Assembly (NCBI RefSeq): GCF_024055725.1
Contig: NZ_JAMXMX010000012.1
Location: forward strand, 124,001-188,000
Source of the DNA: Actinoallomurus spadix
GTDB taxonomy: Bacteria > Actinomycetota > Actinomycetes > Streptosporangiales > Streptosporangiaceae
Direction of reading: 5' to 3'
Length of the DNA stretch: 64,000 nucleotides
Under the pieces are notes generated by a model. That model worked only from the letters and a program-made list of their open reading frames with translations, had not been told where the DNA came from and did no database searches. Positions 7,360 to 41,370 of this stretch are shown here, piece after piece (position 1 is the first letter of the stretch; each line of letters begins with the position of its first letter). A program made the position numbers and the translations under genes.

Positions 7360-8370
7360 TCACCGGACGATCAGGGCGGTGGCCTCGCGGGGGACGAGCT
7401 CGCCCACCACGGGCGCGCCCGGCACCTCACCGGCGACGAGCAGCCCCCCGGACGTCTGGGCGTCCGCGAGCAGCAGCCGGTCCTCCTCCGACACCCGGCC
7501 GAAGTCCGCGTGCGGCGTCACCCACGCGAGGTTGCGGCGGGTGCCCCCCGACACGTACCCCTCGCGTACCGCGTCGCGCGCGCCGTCGAGATAGGGGACG
7601 GCCGCGGCGTCCACCACCGCGGTGACGCCGCTCGCCCGCGCCATCTTGTACAGATGCCCCAGGAGCCCGAACCCGGTGACGTCGGTCGCGCAGCGGTGTC
7701 CGCGCTCCAGCGCCGCGCGGGACGCCTCGGCGTTCAGCGTCGTCATCGCCGCGACGGCCTGCGCGAAGACCTCTCCCGTCGCCTTGTGCCGCGTGTTCAG
7801 CACTCCGACGCCGAGCGGCTTGGTGAGGGACAATGGGACGCCGGGCCGCCCGGCGTCCAGGCGCAGCAGCCGTCCGGGATCGGCCAGCCCCGTGACCGCC
7901 ATGCCGTACTTCGGCTCTGGATCGTCCACGCTGTGCCCGCCCGCGACGTGGCAGCCGGCCGCGCGCGCGACGTCGAGACCGCCGCGCAGCACGTCGCGGG
8001 CCGGTTCCATCGGCAGCGTGTCCCGTGGCCACCCGAGAAGGTTGACCGCGACGACCGGGGTGCCGCCGACGGCGTACACGTCCGACAGCGCGTTCGTCGC
8101 CGCGATCCTGCCCCAGTCGTACGGGTCGTCGACCACCGGGGTGAAGAAGTCGGCGGTGGCCACCACGGCCCGGTCGCCCTCGATCCGCACCACCGCGGCG
8201 TCGTCACCGTCGTCCAGGCCGATCAGCAGGTCGTCCGGGCGGTCGGTGTCGATCAGCCCGGCGACGATCTCCTCCAACTCCCCGGGCGGGATCTTGCAGG
8301 CGCATCCGCCGCCGTGCGCGAACTGCGTCAGGCGGTAGGCCGACCCGAGTGCTCCGCTGCTGCTCCCCAT
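7360..8370 (-). CDS. selD: Selenide, water dikinase (selenophosphate synthetase)
   Basis: Makes selenophosphate from selenide and ATP, the selenium donor for SelA. ATG 8370 gives 336 residues beginning MGSSSGALGSAYRLTQ. The catalytic loop is HGGGCACK (Cys23 and Lys26), matching GAGCGCK of E. coli. The first cysteine is a real TGC, so this SelD is not itself a selenoprotein. Other family signatures are TADFFTPVVDDPYDWGRIAA, SDVYAVGGTP, GGHSVDDPEPKYG and TDVTGFGLLGH. A longer open frame continues upstream to 9024 but has no homology. With selC, selA and selB in the same window it completes the selenocysteine pathway for fdhA. Confidence 0.97.
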   Translation of the reverse strand: MGSSSGALGSAYRLTQFAHGGGCACKIPPGELEEIVAGLIDTDRPDDLLIGLDDGDDAAVVRIEGDRAVVATADFFTPVVDDPYDWGRIAATNALSDVYAVGGTPVVAVNLLGWPRDTLPMEPARDVLRGGLDVARAAGCHVAGGHSVDDPEPKYGMAVTGLADPGRLLRLDAGRPGVPLSLTKPLGVGVLNTRHKATGEVFAQAVAAMTTLNAEASRAALERGHRCATDVTGFGLLGHLYKMARASGVTAVVDAAAVPYLDGARDAVREGYVSGGTRRNLAWVTPHADFGRVSEEDRLLLADAQTSGGLLVAGEVPGAPVVGELVPREATALIVR

Positions 8371-8478
8371 ACCGGCGAACCTATCGCGGGCGGGAGCCGG
8401 CCCGCCGTTCCCGGCGCTTCGCCGGTATTCGCCGTCCGCCATGGGAACCGGACCGGCGGCGGGCGCGTCTGGTAGGAC

Positions 8479-8745
8479 ATGGCCCGGCTGCTCGCCGCCT
8501 TCGTCGCGGCGCTGATCGCATGGTGGGATCTCACTGACGCGCCGGCCTCGTCCGTCCTCTTCGTCGCGGCGGCGGCCCTGGCCGTCACGGGACTCATCGT
8601 CCTGGTCGCCCTCCGCCTCCCGGTCGCCCTCACCGCGGGCCCGCCCGTCCGCGCCGCCGCCCTGCGTGACCGCGCGGGCCGTTCGGCGCTCATCCGCCTC
8701 CGCGACCCCGGCGCGCCCGGCCGCCCTCGCGTGCGGGCCCCGTAG
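8479..8745 (+). CDS. Small membrane protein of the DUF6412 type
   Basis: 88 residues from ATG 8479: two hydrophobic segments (LLAAFVAALIAWW and SSVLFVAAAALAVTGLIVLVAL) then a basic tail. Proteins like this commonly sit just before a short YidC-like insertase in actinobacteria, as here, which makes a functional link likely but unproven. It is divergent from selD. Confidence 0.6.
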   Translation: MARLLAAFVAALIAWWDLTDAPASSVLFVAAAALAVTGLIVLVALRLPVALTAGPPVRAAALRDRAGRSALIRLRDPGAPGRPRVRAP

Positions 8746-8872
8746 GGACGCCTGTTCGCCGCACCGCCTTCCGATCACCGCCCCGCGTCTCCCGGCGCGG
8801 CCGACGCGGGATCGGCCGGGTGCGGCCGTTCGCCGTCCCTGCCGACCGACCACCGAAGGGTCGTCCTTCCTC

Positions 8873-9577
8873 ATGCTCGCCGTTCTCGACGGTCCCGTAC
8901 GCGTGGCGTACGACCTCGTCACCGGACTCGCGTCCGCCCTGCATCCGCTCACCGGGGACCTCAGCGCGGCCCTGGCCATCGTCGTCTTCACCGCCGGGGT
9001 CCGCCTCGCCCCCCACCCGCTCACCCGCCGCCAGGCCGCCGCCGACCGTGCCCGCCGCCGGCTCGCCCCGCAGGTCGGCGCGCTGCGCGAGCGTCATCGC
9101 GACGACCCGCTCCGCGCTCAGCAGGAGGTGACCGCGCTGTACCGTGCCGAGGGCACGTCGGCGTTCGCCGGCATCGGCCCCGCCCTGGTGCAGATGCCGG
9201 TCTTCGCCGTCGTCTACCGGCTGTTCCTGTCCCCGGCCGTCGGCGGCCACGCCAACCTGCTGCTCGCCGACACCCTCTTCGGCGTGCCGCTGGGGAGCCG
9301 GTGGCTCACGTCCGCCGGCGCCTTCGGCCCGCACGGCCTCGTCTTCCTCGCCCTGTTCGTCCTGCTGGCGGCGGTGGCCTGGTGGGCGTCACGCCGGATG
9401 CACACCGGTCAGGCGATCCCGGCCGGGCCGGCCGGCCGGGTGATGCGCCTGCTGCCGTTCGGCACCGTCGCGATCGCCGCGTACGTCCCCCTGGCGGCCG
9501 GCCTGTACCTGCTGACATCGACCGCGTGGAGCACCGCCGAACGCGCCCTCCTGTGGCGCGGGGGCGCCTCGGGCTGA
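8873..9577 (+). CDS. Short YidC/Oxa1-family membrane protein insertase
   Basis: Membrane insertase-like protein, 234 residues from ATG 8873. It has the YidC core: a first helix, a cytosolic basic hairpin (RQAAADRARRRLAPQVGALRE), then GIGPALVQMPVFAVVYRLFLSP and further helices, ending WRGGASG. It lacks the long periplasmic domain of Gram-negative YidC and the C-terminal extension of the main actinobacterial copy, so it is probably a second, specialised paralogue paired with the DUF6412 gene. The Arg expected in the hydrophilic groove is not obvious in the first helix. selC follows within 15 bp. Confidence 0.85.
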   Translation: MLAVLDGPVRVAYDLVTGLASALHPLTGDLSAALAIVVFTAGVRLAPHPLTRRQAAADRARRRLAPQVGALRERHRDDPLRAQQEVTALYRAEGTSAFAGIGPALVQMPVFAVVYRLFLSPAVGGHANLLLADTLFGVPLGSRWLTSAGAFGPHGLVFLALFVLLAAVAWWASRRMHTGQAIPAGPAGRVMRLLPFGTVAIAAYVPLAAGLYLLTSTAWSTAERALLWRGGASG

Positions 9578-9591
9578 GTAGGCTCTGCGGC

Positions 9592-9687
9592 GGAGGCGGG
9601 AGGGTGCCTGGTGGCCCTCATGGTCTTCAAAACCATTGGACGGCGCTCGGCGTCGTCGGCGGGTTCGATTCCCGTGCGCCTCCGCCA
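9592..9687 (+). tRNA. selC: Selenocysteine tRNA (anticodon UCA)
   Basis: A 96-nt tRNA-Sec with encoded CCA. Acceptor GGAGGCG (9592-9598) pairs with CGCCTCC (9677-9683) and the discriminator is G9684. The D region has a GGTGCC-like arm with a TGGT loop. The anticodon stem ATGGT/ACCAT closes loop CTTCAAA, placing TCA at positions 34-36. The long variable arm ACGGCG/CGTCGT has a five-base loop, and the T arm is GCGGG-TTCGATT-CCCGT. Length and architecture match E. coli selC (95 nt). The eighth acceptor pair, usual in bacterial tRNA-Sec, appears to be a G-G mismatch (9599/9676). Confidence 0.93.
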
Positions 9688-29507: not shown

Positions 29508-29535
29508 GCCGTCCCCGCACGGGGGCGGGGACGGC
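29508..29535 (-). terminator. Terminator of the secreted DUF4232-like gene
   Basis: Stem GCCGTCCCCGC (29508-29518) / GCGGGGACGGC (29525-29535) with loop ACGGGG, 28 bp beyond the stop of the minus-strand gene. Its stem is nearly identical to the rtcB terminator 90 bp away. Confidence 0.65.
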
Positions 29536-38762: not shown

Positions 38763-39695
38763 ATGATCGAGGCGAAGAACCTCACCAAACGCTACGGCGA
38801 CAAGGTCGCCGTGCAGGACCTCTCCTTCACCGTCCAACCCGGAAGGGTGACCGGATTCCTCGGGCCGAACGGCGCCGGGAAGTCGACGACGATGCGCCTG
38901 CTCCTCGGGCTCGACCGGCCGGACGGCGGTGACGCGACGATCGCCGGCCGGCATTACCCGGACCTGCCGCGGCCCCTCTCGGTGGTCGGCGCGCTGCTCG
39001 AGGCGCGCGCGGTCCACACCGGGCGCAGCGCCTACAACCACCTGCTCTGCCTGGCCCAGACCCAGGGCATCGGCCCCGCGCGGGTCCAGGAGGTCATCGA
39101 CCTGGTCGGGCTGCGGGAGGTCGCCCGCAAGCGCGCCGGCGGCTTCTCCCTGGGCATGGGCCAGCGGCTCGGCATCGCGGCGGCCCTGCTCGGCGACCCG
39201 TCCGTGCTGATCCTCGACGAGCCGGTCAACGGCCTCGACCCCGAGGGGATCCTGTGGATCCGCAACCTGATGAAGTACCTCGCCGCCGAGGGGCGGACGG
39301 TCTTCGTGTCGAGCCACCTGATGAACGAGATGGCGGTCACCGCCGAGCATCTCATCGTCATCGGCCGGGGCCGGCTCATCGCGGACTGCTCGACGGAGGA
39401 GTTCATCGAGCGCAGCGCCGAGCAGCAGGTGGTCGTCCGCAGTCCGGACGCCGAGCGGCTCGCCGCCGTCCTCGACGAGGAAGGCGGCAAGACCACCGTC
39501 GACGGTGACGGCGCGCTGCTCGTGTCCAACCTGGAGGCTCCGCGCATCGGCGAGCTCGCCGCCGCCGGCGGCTTCGTCCTGCACGAGCTGACCCCCCGGC
39601 GCGGCTCGCTGGAAGAGGCGTTCATGGAGCTGACCCGGGACAGCGTCGAGTACGGCACGGCATCGGCCCCGCACGCCGAAGGAGACCCGCGATGA
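38763..39695 (+). CDS. ABC transporter ATP-binding protein
   Basis: 310 residues from ATG 38763. Walker A GPNGAGKST (residues ~35-43), signature region GGFSLGMGQRLGIAAALLG and Walker B VLILDEPVNGLDP; switch histidine in VFVSSHLMNEM. Family of bacitracin/lantibiotic-type or SCO-type ABC-2 exporters (DrrA-like). Overlaps the permease by ATGA. Confidence 0.93.
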   Translation: MIEAKNLTKRYGDKVAVQDLSFTVQPGRVTGFLGPNGAGKSTTMRLLLGLDRPDGGDATIAGRHYPDLPRPLSVVGALLEARAVHTGRSAYNHLLCLAQTQGIGPARVQEVIDLVGLREVARKRAGGFSLGMGQRLGIAAALLGDPSVLILDEPVNGLDPEGILWIRNLMKYLAAEGRTVFVSSHLMNEMAVTAEHLIVIGRGRLIADCSTEEFIERSAEQQVVVRSPDAERLAAVLDEEGGKTTVDGDGALLVSNLEAPRIGELAAAGGFVLHELTPRRGSLEEAFMELTRDSVEYGTASAPHAEGDPR

Positions 39696-40528
39696 CCACC
39701 GTTTCCAGCGTGACGGAACGCCCGGCCGTTCCCGCAGACCACCGGCCGGGCTTCCACCACCTGCTGCGCAGCGAGTGGACCAAGATCCGCTCGGTGCGCT
39801 CGACCGTGTGGTCGCTGATCCTGCTGGTCGTCCTCGACCTGGGCTTCACCGCCCTGTTCGTGGGCATCATGGTCGGGCAGTGGGACAAGGCGTCCCCCCA
39901 GGATCACGCGAACGCGATCGCCGATCCGACGAGCGCGATCCTCGGCAGCGGCTTCTTCCTCAGCCAGCTGACCGTCTGCGTCCTCGGCGTCATGGTGATC
40001 GCGTCGGAGTACTCCACCGGGATGATCCGGGCCAGCCTCCTGGCGGTGCCCCGGCGGGTGCCCATGCTCGCCGCCAAGGCGGCGGTGTTCGGGCTCCTCA
40101 TCCTCGTTCTCGGAACGGCGGTGTCGTTCGTCTCCTTCTTCATCGGCGCGCCGATGCTCCATTCCAAGGCGCCCGTGTCGCTGGGCGACCCGGGAGTCCT
40201 GCGCGCCGTCATCGGCGGCGGTCTCTACCTCGCCGTGCTGGGCCTGTTCGCGATGGCCATCGGCGGGATCGTCCGGCACACCGCGGCGGGCATCACGGGC
40301 GTGATCGGATTCGTCCTCGTCCTGCAGCCGCTCGTCCAGTTGCTCCCGGGCAGCATCGGCAAGCACGTGCACGCGTACCTGCCGTCCGAGGCGGGTCATC
40401 TGATCGCCCAGGCGCACCAGGGCAAGGACGACCTCCTGACGCCGTGGCAGGGCTTCGGGGTCTTCTGCGTCTGGACCGCGGTGCTGCTGGTGATCGCGGC
40501 GGTCGTGCTCAAGCGGCGCGACGCCTGA
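39692..40528 (+). CDS. ABC-2 type permease
   Basis: 278 residues from ATG 39692, six membrane helices. LLRSEWTKIRSVRSTVWSLILL is the characteristic start of actinobacterial ABC-2 permeases. Partner of the preceding ATPase; substrate unknown. A strong terminator follows at 40571. Confidence 0.92.
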   Translation: MTTVSSVTERPAVPADHRPGFHHLLRSEWTKIRSVRSTVWSLILLVVLDLGFTALFVGIMVGQWDKASPQDHANAIADPTSAILGSGFFLSQLTVCVLGVMVIASEYSTGMIRASLLAVPRRVPMLAAKAAVFGLLILVLGTAVSFVSFFIGAPMLHSKAPVSLGDPGVLRAVIGGGLYLAVLGLFAMAIGGIVRHTAAGITGVIGFVLVLQPLVQLLPGSIGKHVHAYLPSEAGHLIAQAHQGKDDLLTPWQGFGVFCVWTAVLLVIAAVVLKRRDA

Positions 40529-40570
40529 CGGCCGGCGCGCGCCTGACGGACGGCGCGACGCATGACGGAC

Positions 40571-40602
40571 GGAGCCGGGCCGCGATCGGGCGGCCCGGCT
40601 CC
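40571..40602 (+). terminator. Terminator of the ABC operon
   Basis: Thirteen-base perfect stem GGAGCCGGGCCGC (40571-40583) / GCGGCCCGGCTCC (40590-40602) with loop GATCGG, followed by GTCTTC, 43 bp after the permease stop. Confidence 0.8.
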
Positions 40603-40637
40603 GTCTTCGGCGTGGAATCGTCCCTGAGGCGGCACAA

Positions 40638-40769
40638 CCACATAAGGGGGAGAAATGTGGCGACGCCGGGAGGATACGGGGGCAATCCTCCCGGCGTCGC
40701 AATCATCGGTGTTCCGACGGGGGCCCGGAACACCGGCACGGGCGCTCCGACGGGGGACCAGAGCGCCGG
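40638..40769 (-). ncRNA. Candidate structured small RNA: four stem-loops, each with a CCCCC loop
   Basis: On the minus strand four consecutive hairpins occur. Hairpin 1: GGCGCTC/GAGCGCC, loop TGGTCCCCCGTCG (40761-40767 with 40741-40747). Hairpin 2: CGGTGTTCC/GGAACACCG, loop GGGCCCCCGTC (40707-40735). Hairpin 3: a 16-bp stem GCGACGCCGGGAGGAT with loop TGCCCCCGT (40660-40700). Hairpin 4: CCACAT/ATGTGG, loop TTCTCCCCCTT (40638-40660). Linkers are 5-6 bases between the first three, and hairpins 3 and 4 share a base. Three loops share CCCCCGT. A promoter-like sequence lies just upstream. The actinobacterial 6C RNA family also presents C-runs in hairpin loops, but with two hairpins as I recall. No credible protein is encoded on either strand. 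Hairpin 3 followed by ATTTCTCC could terminate, which would leave hairpin 4 outside. Confidence 0.6.
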
Positions 40770-40774
40770 TACAA

Positions 40775-40806
40775 ATCGTACACCGAACCCCCCCTCTGTT
40801 AGTCAA
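40775..40806 (-). promoter_or_regulatory. Candidate promoter of the C-loop small RNA
   Basis: On the minus strand TTGACT (40806-40801) and TACGAT (40780-40775) with a 20-bp spacer that contains a run of seven G (40794-40788). The inferred start (~40768) coincides with the first base of hairpin 1. The spacer is longer than ideal. Confidence 0.4.
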
Positions 40807-40813
40807 GAGATTG

Positions 40814-41161
40814 TCACGAGCCGATTTCGTCGCGCGGGCCGGAAATCTCTTTTCGGTCACCGGTCTTTGGCTCGTACGGGGTGAATCGCGCGGCCGAGTC
40901 CGGCTCGCGGCCGCCATTGGCGAAGATGACGGCGACATAGGGCAGCACCACCGCGCCGAGCAGCGCGACGATCGCCGTCAGCCGCCAGGCGCCGGGCAGC
41001 GCCACGGCGCAGATGATGCTCAGCAGGAAGCACAGCGCCCGCACGGCCATCGTGATCAGGTAACGGCGCTCGCGGTAGCCGATGTCCTCGGACAGTGGCC
41101 GGCGAGCGTCCGTCACCGTGTACACCACGGGCCGCTCACGTCGCCGGATCGGCGGTCTCAC
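40814..41161 (-). CDS. DUF3099 membrane protein
   Basis: 115 residues from GTG 41161 (GGGGAG about eight bases upstream; GTG 41167 possible). YTVTDARRPLSEDIGYRERRYLITMAVRALCFLLSII and ALPGAWRLTAIVALLGAVVLPYVAVIFAN match DUF3099: a soluble head and two helices, then a polar tail. Function unknown, conserved in actinobacteria. Confidence 0.85.
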   Translation of the reverse strand: MRPPIRRRERPVVYTVTDARRPLSEDIGYRERRYLITMAVRALCFLLSIICAVALPGAWRLTAIVALLGAVVLPYVAVIFANGGREPDSAARFTPYEPKTGDRKEISGPRDEIGS

Positions 41162-41370
41162 CCTCACTCTCCCCACCGTAGTCCTCGGGAGGAACCGGGC
41201 AAGCGCCCGGGTGATCCCTGATGCGCCACAGGCGTCCGTGCCCGCGACGGCGCCCCTCATCAGGCCGCGGGACCCGGCGGGGCGGGACCGCTCCCACCGC
41301 ACCGCATGGCGGGTGCGCCTCGCGGGAAGGAGCATCGAAGCATCTCAATCGCGGCGCGGGAGGAACTGTC

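Follow-up and report, generated by a model that had tools for sequence, protein, structure and literature searches.

A covarying three-hairpin RNA with CCCCCGU loops in Actinoallomurus spadix: a probable second family of C-loop small RNAs, widely distributed alongside 6C

The window analysed here is a stretch of 64,000 nucleotides of Actinoallomurus spadix in which a DUF3099 gene on the minus strand and an ABC-2 permease gene on the plus strand face each other across a short intergenic region (Table 1). What lies between them looks like a single-copy minus-strand RNA gene of about 116 nt, a gene that stands behind DUF3099 in most relatives. The DUF3099 gene ends at 40814, just ahead of a group of promoter-like motifs, and on the other side no same-strand open reading frame that we judged to be a real gene follows the RNA, the next gene being the convergent permease gene, so that in the window the RNA is not a leader. 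The initial annotation had placed the element between two terminated genes, and this description was poorly borne out, since a strict terminator scan of window positions 40400-41000 found none; what stands of the terminated flanks is a long inverted repeat at about 40563-40613, behind the permease gene, which the scan missed.

Table 1. Features of the RNA locus and its flanks, in window positions
Feature	Position	Strand	Remarks
ABC-2 permease gene	39692..40528	(+)	Pfam; convergent to the small RNA
Hairpin 4 of the initial annotation	40638-40660	(-)	Not conserved; outside the RNA family
Small RNA gene body (hairpins 1-3 and ends)	40654..40770	(-)	About 116 nt; covariance model R1, 57-sequence alignment A1
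Hairpin 3	40660-40700	(-)	16 bp; loop UGCCCCCGU; terminator-like; kept in shorter forms
Hairpin 2	40707-40735	(-)	10 pairs; loop GGCCCCCGU; absent from shorter forms (alignment A4)
Hairpin 1	40741-40767	(-)	7 Watson-Crick pairs, 9 with a G.U; loop GUCCCCCGU
GTG, then -10-like TACGAT (TANNNT)	40775..40783 (hexamer 40775-40780)	(-)	Per-column conservation
-35-like TTGACT	40801..40806	(-)	TTGAC in 58/58 homologous sequences, which had been cut out by this motif itself
Upstream boxes GAAAT-N6-GTGAC	40813..40828	(-)	GARAT and GTRAC in relatives; 11-bp phased with TTGAC
DUF3099 gene	40814..41335	(-)	Pfam PF11298, 77.9 bits; usual upstream neighbour

Four adjacent stem-loops had been read at this place, and three of them, hairpins 1 to 3, hold. 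All three have stems that pair fully or nearly so, and carry CCCCCGT in the loop on the minus strand. The fourth stem-loop fell away: it has 5 free pairs, a sixth would take base 40660, which is part of hairpin 3, and by eye the hairpin is absent from all 7 other genomes of the genus (L004-L010). We rejected a four-hairpin RNA on this absence. The region folds far better than shuffled sequence, with a z score of -8.7 over 236 nt and of -6.25 over 141 nt, and at neither length did any of 200 shuffles do as well. Counted over both strands, the window holds 6 hairpins whose loop contains CCCCC and whose stem reaches 7 or more, 3 of these being hairpins 1 to 3, while 60 first-order Markov copies of the window gave a mean of 2.3 and a maximum of 6. 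Adjacent C-loop hairpins (less than 40 nt apart) occurred as a single pair across all 60 copies. The total of 6 is thus at the top of the chance range, and it is the clustering that is unusual. Another 10-bp hairpin with CCCCCGT in or at its loop lies at 29508-29535 (minus strand), away from the RNA locus.

A DNA search found the stretch in 60 of 100 relatives, the genome of the window counted in; 57 of these 60 belong to the same family, Streptosporangiaceae in GTDB, from which 61 genomes were searched. In the 7 other genomes of the genus the stretch is 93-95% identical. From the matches in the 60 genomes we built an alignment (A1) of 57 sequences, of which 56 belong to the family and one to a different family of the order, leaving out one family genome in which the stretch is split over two contigs (L051, L061) and the class-level matches L062 and L063. 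The last of these, in G080, was not confirmed at E<=0.01 by R2, a covariance model made from 17 sequences of a shorter form, and may be a chance match. The three-hairpin covariance model, R1, matched the gene body in the genome of the window at 130 bits (G000:C3:164654-164770). The other two R1 matches in this genome scored 33.1 and 20.7 bits, and the stronger one (L094) lies at the same place on the plus strand, where we read it as a mirror image of the hairpins that it overlaps.

The compensatory stem changes with fixed loops that the initial annotation had proposed as a check were found across the 57 homologues. Over the 35 pairs of the three-hairpin structure, 99.5% of 1994 alignment cells are paired, and in 17 of the pairs both sides have changed, against 7.9 in shuffled alignments, of which none out of 500 reached 17. 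The covariation score was 0.240, compared with 0.136 after shuffling and at most 0.092 when partner columns were slid. The two-hairpin set of 17 sequences behaved in the same way, with both sides changed in 11 of 21 pairs (shuffles 2.3) and a covariation score of 0.289 against 0.166. The loops are fixed. That of hairpin 1 is exactly GUCCCCCGU in 50 of the 57 homologues and GUCCCCCGC in 6, and has one C fewer in the remaining one; that of hairpin 2 reads G/A-GCCCCCGU in 55; and that of hairpin 3 is UGCCCCCGU without exception. The mean majority fraction is highest in the loops (0.985), followed by the stems (0.911), the linkers (0.725) and the tail (0.579). Selection on the loop, which had been proposed from the window, is borne out by stems that covary around loops that do not change, and the conserved RNA is one of three hairpins with CCCCCGU loops under selection. 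A natural variant of the putative seed was seen in L104, L152 and L155, where the loop of hairpin 1 is CCCCCGG instead of CCCCCGU.

Upstream of hairpin 1, the bases that follow TTGAC drift until, 18 bases on, GTGTA appears, each of its columns being kept in 57 to 58 of the 58 homologous sequences; the last T of TANNNT is kept in 57. The TTGACT and TACGAT motifs of the initial annotation are thus present and promoter-like, but 20 nt separate TTGACN from TANNNT, which is long for sigma-70, and a sigma-70 scan with 16-18 nt spacers gave no promoter at the window locus. Because of this spacing and the negative scan, any start site is either a guess or needs an activator, and the promoter is either activated or not read by standard spacing. 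The spacer of the window also contains G7, in which a pairing partner for the loops had been seen. At least 7 G occur in the spacer of 15 of 57 homologues and at least 5 G in 33, so that G7 was rejected as a conserved partner, and it would also be untranscribed if the start follows the -10-like motif.

Further upstream, the boxes of Table 1 overlap the 3' end of the DUF3099 reading frame in the window, and in many loci they coincide with its C-terminal codons (Glu-Ile-x-Ser-stop). In 14 loci of the family set (L046-L050, L052-L060), RNA and promoter boxes persist with no DUF3099 match in 1.6-1.8 kb upstream; the gene neighbour can therefore be lost or moved. The promoter-like motifs are conserved in these loci too, and by eye GTAAC is present in 11 of them and GAGAT in 10. 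Since the boxes persist there, we keep the possibility that GARAT-N6-GTRAC-N6-TTGAC may be a direct-repeat activator site; the boxes may resemble sites of MtrA or GlnR.

Of 394 class genomes, 94 were matched by R1. The same family accounts for 41 of these, and among the genomes listed none of that family lacked a match. R2 matched 152 of the 394 sampled genomes of the class (Actinomycetia), leaving 242 without a match, and in 149 genomes of the phylum, some of them of the class, it gave 5 matches, all within the class. The weak R1 matches outside the family, as far as they were fetched, are the shorter form at the same locus. Gene order is kept as well. We read 41 loci outside the family set individually: DUF3099 is the upstream, same-strand neighbour in 37 of them, and on the downstream side 38 have moaA or a small cysteine-rich gene. 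Within the family set DUF3099 was found in 44 of 58 loci. The cysteine-rich protein, with a CSAKGCRADAVWVLAWNNPK motif, is encoded at L108:1666-1923 (minus strand) and by homologues elsewhere, and its gene adjoins the RNA and moaA. Pfam and NCBIfam gave nothing for the protein at E<=0.1, and it is perhaps an unnamed conserved family.

The number of C loops differs between lineages. Of the 80 loci listed from named genomes 55 were read, and the counts that follow are among the matches listed. Three C loops are found in Nonomuraea, Actinomadura, Streptosporangium, Nocardiopsis, Microbispora, Planobispora, Thermomonospora, Actinoallomurus and others, and one metagenome locus of the family (L178) has two. 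Two C loops are also present in one Streptomyces (L232) and three Nocardioides, and in eight further genomes that we take as Streptomyces, the moaA genes of L108 and L232 sharing 81.6% identity. Nine of 10 Micromonosporaceae have a single C-loop hairpin, which closely follows a -10-like motif, and Dactylosporangium has two C loops by a simple motif count. A pattern match in Streptomyces pyxinae (L218) looks like a chance match and was dropped. In the 41 loci outside the family set, a script counted two C hairpins in 22, one in 16, three in 1 and none in 2, a rough count in which some loci are mis-scored; the two without a counted hairpin (L106, L159) do, on inspection by eye, have CCCCCGT in their last loop. 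CCCC followed by GT is present in the stretch of all 41. Relatives thus have one to three C hairpins with runs of C4 to C7, and because 16 of the 41 loci keep a single C loop by this rough count, several loops are not essential. One- or two-loop RNAs of this kind occur in many Actinomycetia, and the three-loop form would be their multivalent counterpart.

The initial annotation had suggested a new or expanded RNA of the 6C type, and searches with the 6C model (RF01066) speak against such membership. No match was found in window positions 40530-40950 at E<=10, and the true 6C RNA of this genome lies on another contig (G000:C66:26959-27034, 56.4 bits). The Streptomyces-type two-hairpin homologue L108 has 6C as its best Rfam match, at 33.0 bits (E 0.0055 in a search of 211 bases), under the curated cut-off of 47 bits, and in the reverse direction the new model gives the true 6C of the genome 16.2 bits, which is within background. 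We rejected 6C membership on these scores. 6C is defined as two stem-loops with six or more C each (PMC8388888), whereas the window has three hairpins with C5. The two RNAs also coexist. A 6C match at E<=0.01 was found in 115 of 197 sampled genomes, 86 of them over the cut-off, and 69 of the 115 also carry the new RNA, at a different place in 68; the one genome left out of the comparison of places is G158. The new RNA differs from 6C further in its locus, behind DUF3099 in most cases, in its loops of C5-6 followed by GU, and in having one to three C hairpins with scores under the 6C cut-off. It resembles 6C and the mycobacterial B11 in being actinobacterial and short, with C runs in its loops and a terminator-like last hairpin. 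A remote common origin with 6C is conceivable.

No Rfam family (Rfam 15) reached its threshold in the window region or in ten homologous loci. The highest bit score in the window region was that of Scr3202 (RF02833), a Streptomyces small RNA that is similar in having two hairpins with C-rich loops. It scored 26.1 bits (E 0.1) there and 20.7 bits in L108, against a cut-off of 52 bits, and had no match at E<=10 in a search of the whole genome of the window, and it was rejected as a family for the element. CcsR1 (RF02791) was likewise rejected, with 15.8 bits in L108 against a cut-off of 65.3 and no place among the window-region matches at E<=10. RNAs of the CcsR1 type, with their CCUCCUCCC motif, carry a C-rich motif in a small RNA and are known from alphaproteobacteria; the likeness is an analogy only. 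The highly expressed, conserved small RNAs scr5583 and scr1434 of Streptomyces coelicolor also have C-rich loops (PMC3765725). They are set apart from the new RNA by name alone, their names pointing to flanking genes other than moaA (SCO1821). The literature matches listed contained no description of the new RNA, and those for SCO1821, SCO1820 and matching small-RNA names gave only a mention of moaA. Supplementary tables may nevertheless list an unnamed transcript, for instance those of PMC3765725, where naming after the right flank would lead to a number close to SCO1821. The element probably represents a new family of C-loop small RNAs, widely distributed and separate from 6C.

From the conserved element, its structure, loops, motifs, synteny and distribution we infer how the RNA may be transcribed, pair with G tracts and repress. 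It is probably a stand-alone, trans-acting small RNA gene with its own promoter and CCCCCGU seed loops. Transcription of the minus strand would begin at this promoter, just behind the DUF3099 gene, and end at the last hairpin. Against such an end stand the poor U tail after hairpin 3 in the window (ACATTTCT), where the terminator scan gave nothing, and the T runs of at least 3 near the end, which are frequent in the family set (44 of 57 homologues) but occur in only 18 of 41 loci outside it. Each hairpin would serve as a rigid stem that presents a single-stranded CCCCCGU loop, and by analogy the loops would be expected to pair with ACGGGGG or similar sequences and so to switch off genes through runs of G near translation start sites.

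The analogy is with mycobacterial RNAs for which such pairing has been described. The C-rich loop of the terminator hairpin of B11 in Mycobacterium marinum is reported to pair with G tracts by ribosome-binding sites, and compensatory changes restored regulation, apparently in part (PMC12395582). The same paper gives 5423 predicted sites, covering almost all annotated genes, and states that only the terminator loop mattered in M. marinum while the other C loop did not (PMC12395582). For this reason not every loop of the new RNA is to be assumed a seed. In M. abscessus either C-rich loop was enough to repress a 5' UTR with six G (PMC10470900). The best explanation of the element, by comparison with these RNAs, is that it represents a second family of C-loop small RNAs that would work like 6C and B11, with loops that bind G tracts close to ribosome-binding sites; for the new RNA this pairing is putative, and function by pairing is likely. 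The term anti-SD, used in the initial annotation, is plausible only in the looser sense established for B11 and 6C, with CCCCC facing G tracts and not GGAGG as such. As a general target of the RNA the adjacent cysteine-rich gene was rejected: a run of at least 5 G, 4-20 nt before an in-frame start, is present in only 7 of 41 loci with the gene (L046, L050, L053, L054, L056, L057 and L158), which makes it a lineage-specific target at most.

The 3' end of the element bears on a rather different explanation, which we consider unlikely, that the hairpins are the terminator region (3' UTR) of DUF3099, have no pairing role and yield a small RNA only as a by-product. In 37 of the 41 loci outside the family set DUF3099 precedes the RNA on the same strand, and the last hairpin of the RNA is long and GC-rich and is followed, in 44 of 57 family-set homologues, by at least 3 T within 12 nt. 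A terminator could do with any loop, but all 57 homologues share UGCCCCCGU, and one hairpin would suffice. Promoter-like motifs, conserved in the gap that leads from the stop codon to hairpin 1, also argue against this explanation, as does the persistence of the RNA in the 14 of 58 family-set loci that have no DUF3099 match in 1.6-1.8 kb upstream. The fixed loops would also be accounted for if the RNA served as decoy or scaffold to a protein with affinity for C-rich RNA (cold-shock, KH-type or Rho), in the manner of CsrA sponges, and this too seems improbable. RNAs with GGA loops act as CsrA sponges, and some proteins bind C-rich single-stranded RNA. Identical loops on unrelated stems, one to three in number, fit a repeated protein site as well as they fit a pairing seed, and the context of the loop is fixed past the C run (CCCCCGU). 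However, no result of the analysis points to a protein, and for mycobacterial C-loop RNAs base pairing has been demonstrated as the mode of action (PMC12395582, PMC10470900).

There is very little to be said for a cis-regulatory leader, or a part of the 5' UTR, of the small cysteine-rich gene, although 26 of 41 loci outside the family set have this gene downstream in the same orientation, in most cases no more than about 125 nt from the last hairpin. The window has no same-strand gene downstream, and still the stretch is 93-95% identical in the 7 other genomes of the genus; moreover, 43 of 58 family-set loci have no match for the cysteine-rich gene in the stretch examined. It is also highly improbable that the element is itself 6C, as an additional or divergent copy. 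The design is the same, and 6C is the best match of L108, but its 33 bits remain under the cut-off of 47, and a search at E<=10 gave no 6C match in the window region. The true 6C scores within background with the new model (16.2 bits), and 69 of 115 genomes hold both RNAs, at different places in 68. The preferred reading is that of a trans-acting small RNA with C-loop seeds.

A wider form of this reading is conceivable but more doubtful. It would make the RNA a second C-loop regulator of the Actinomycetia beside 6C, with a loop number set by lineage, multivalent action, sharing of or competition for the G tracts of 6C, and possibly control by a response regulator through the 11-bp phased boxes. 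If this were true, a multivalent RNA would pair with several G tracts or several mRNAs at once.

The window also holds a selenocysteine tRNA gene, at 9592-9687 on the plus strand, found with Rfam (76 bits) and with ARAGORN. Near it, a minus-strand open reading frame at about 7360-9024 resembles, by eye and through a motif, a selenophosphate synthase. Together the two suggest selenoprotein synthesis in the host actinomycete.

Post-transcriptional control is poorly known in antibiotic-producing actinomycetes, and to our knowledge no Hfq has been found in them. An RNA whose putative seed loops hardly vary, and which is conserved in Nonomuraea, Actinomadura and Nocardiopsis and in a shorter form in Streptomyces, offers a handle on this control that is open to testing in laboratory strains of Streptomyces. 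The natural series of one, two and three like loops lends itself to a direct test of the effect of multiple seed loops in one RNA. Since many of these genomes also have 6C, one may ask how targets are shared out between two C-loop RNAs.
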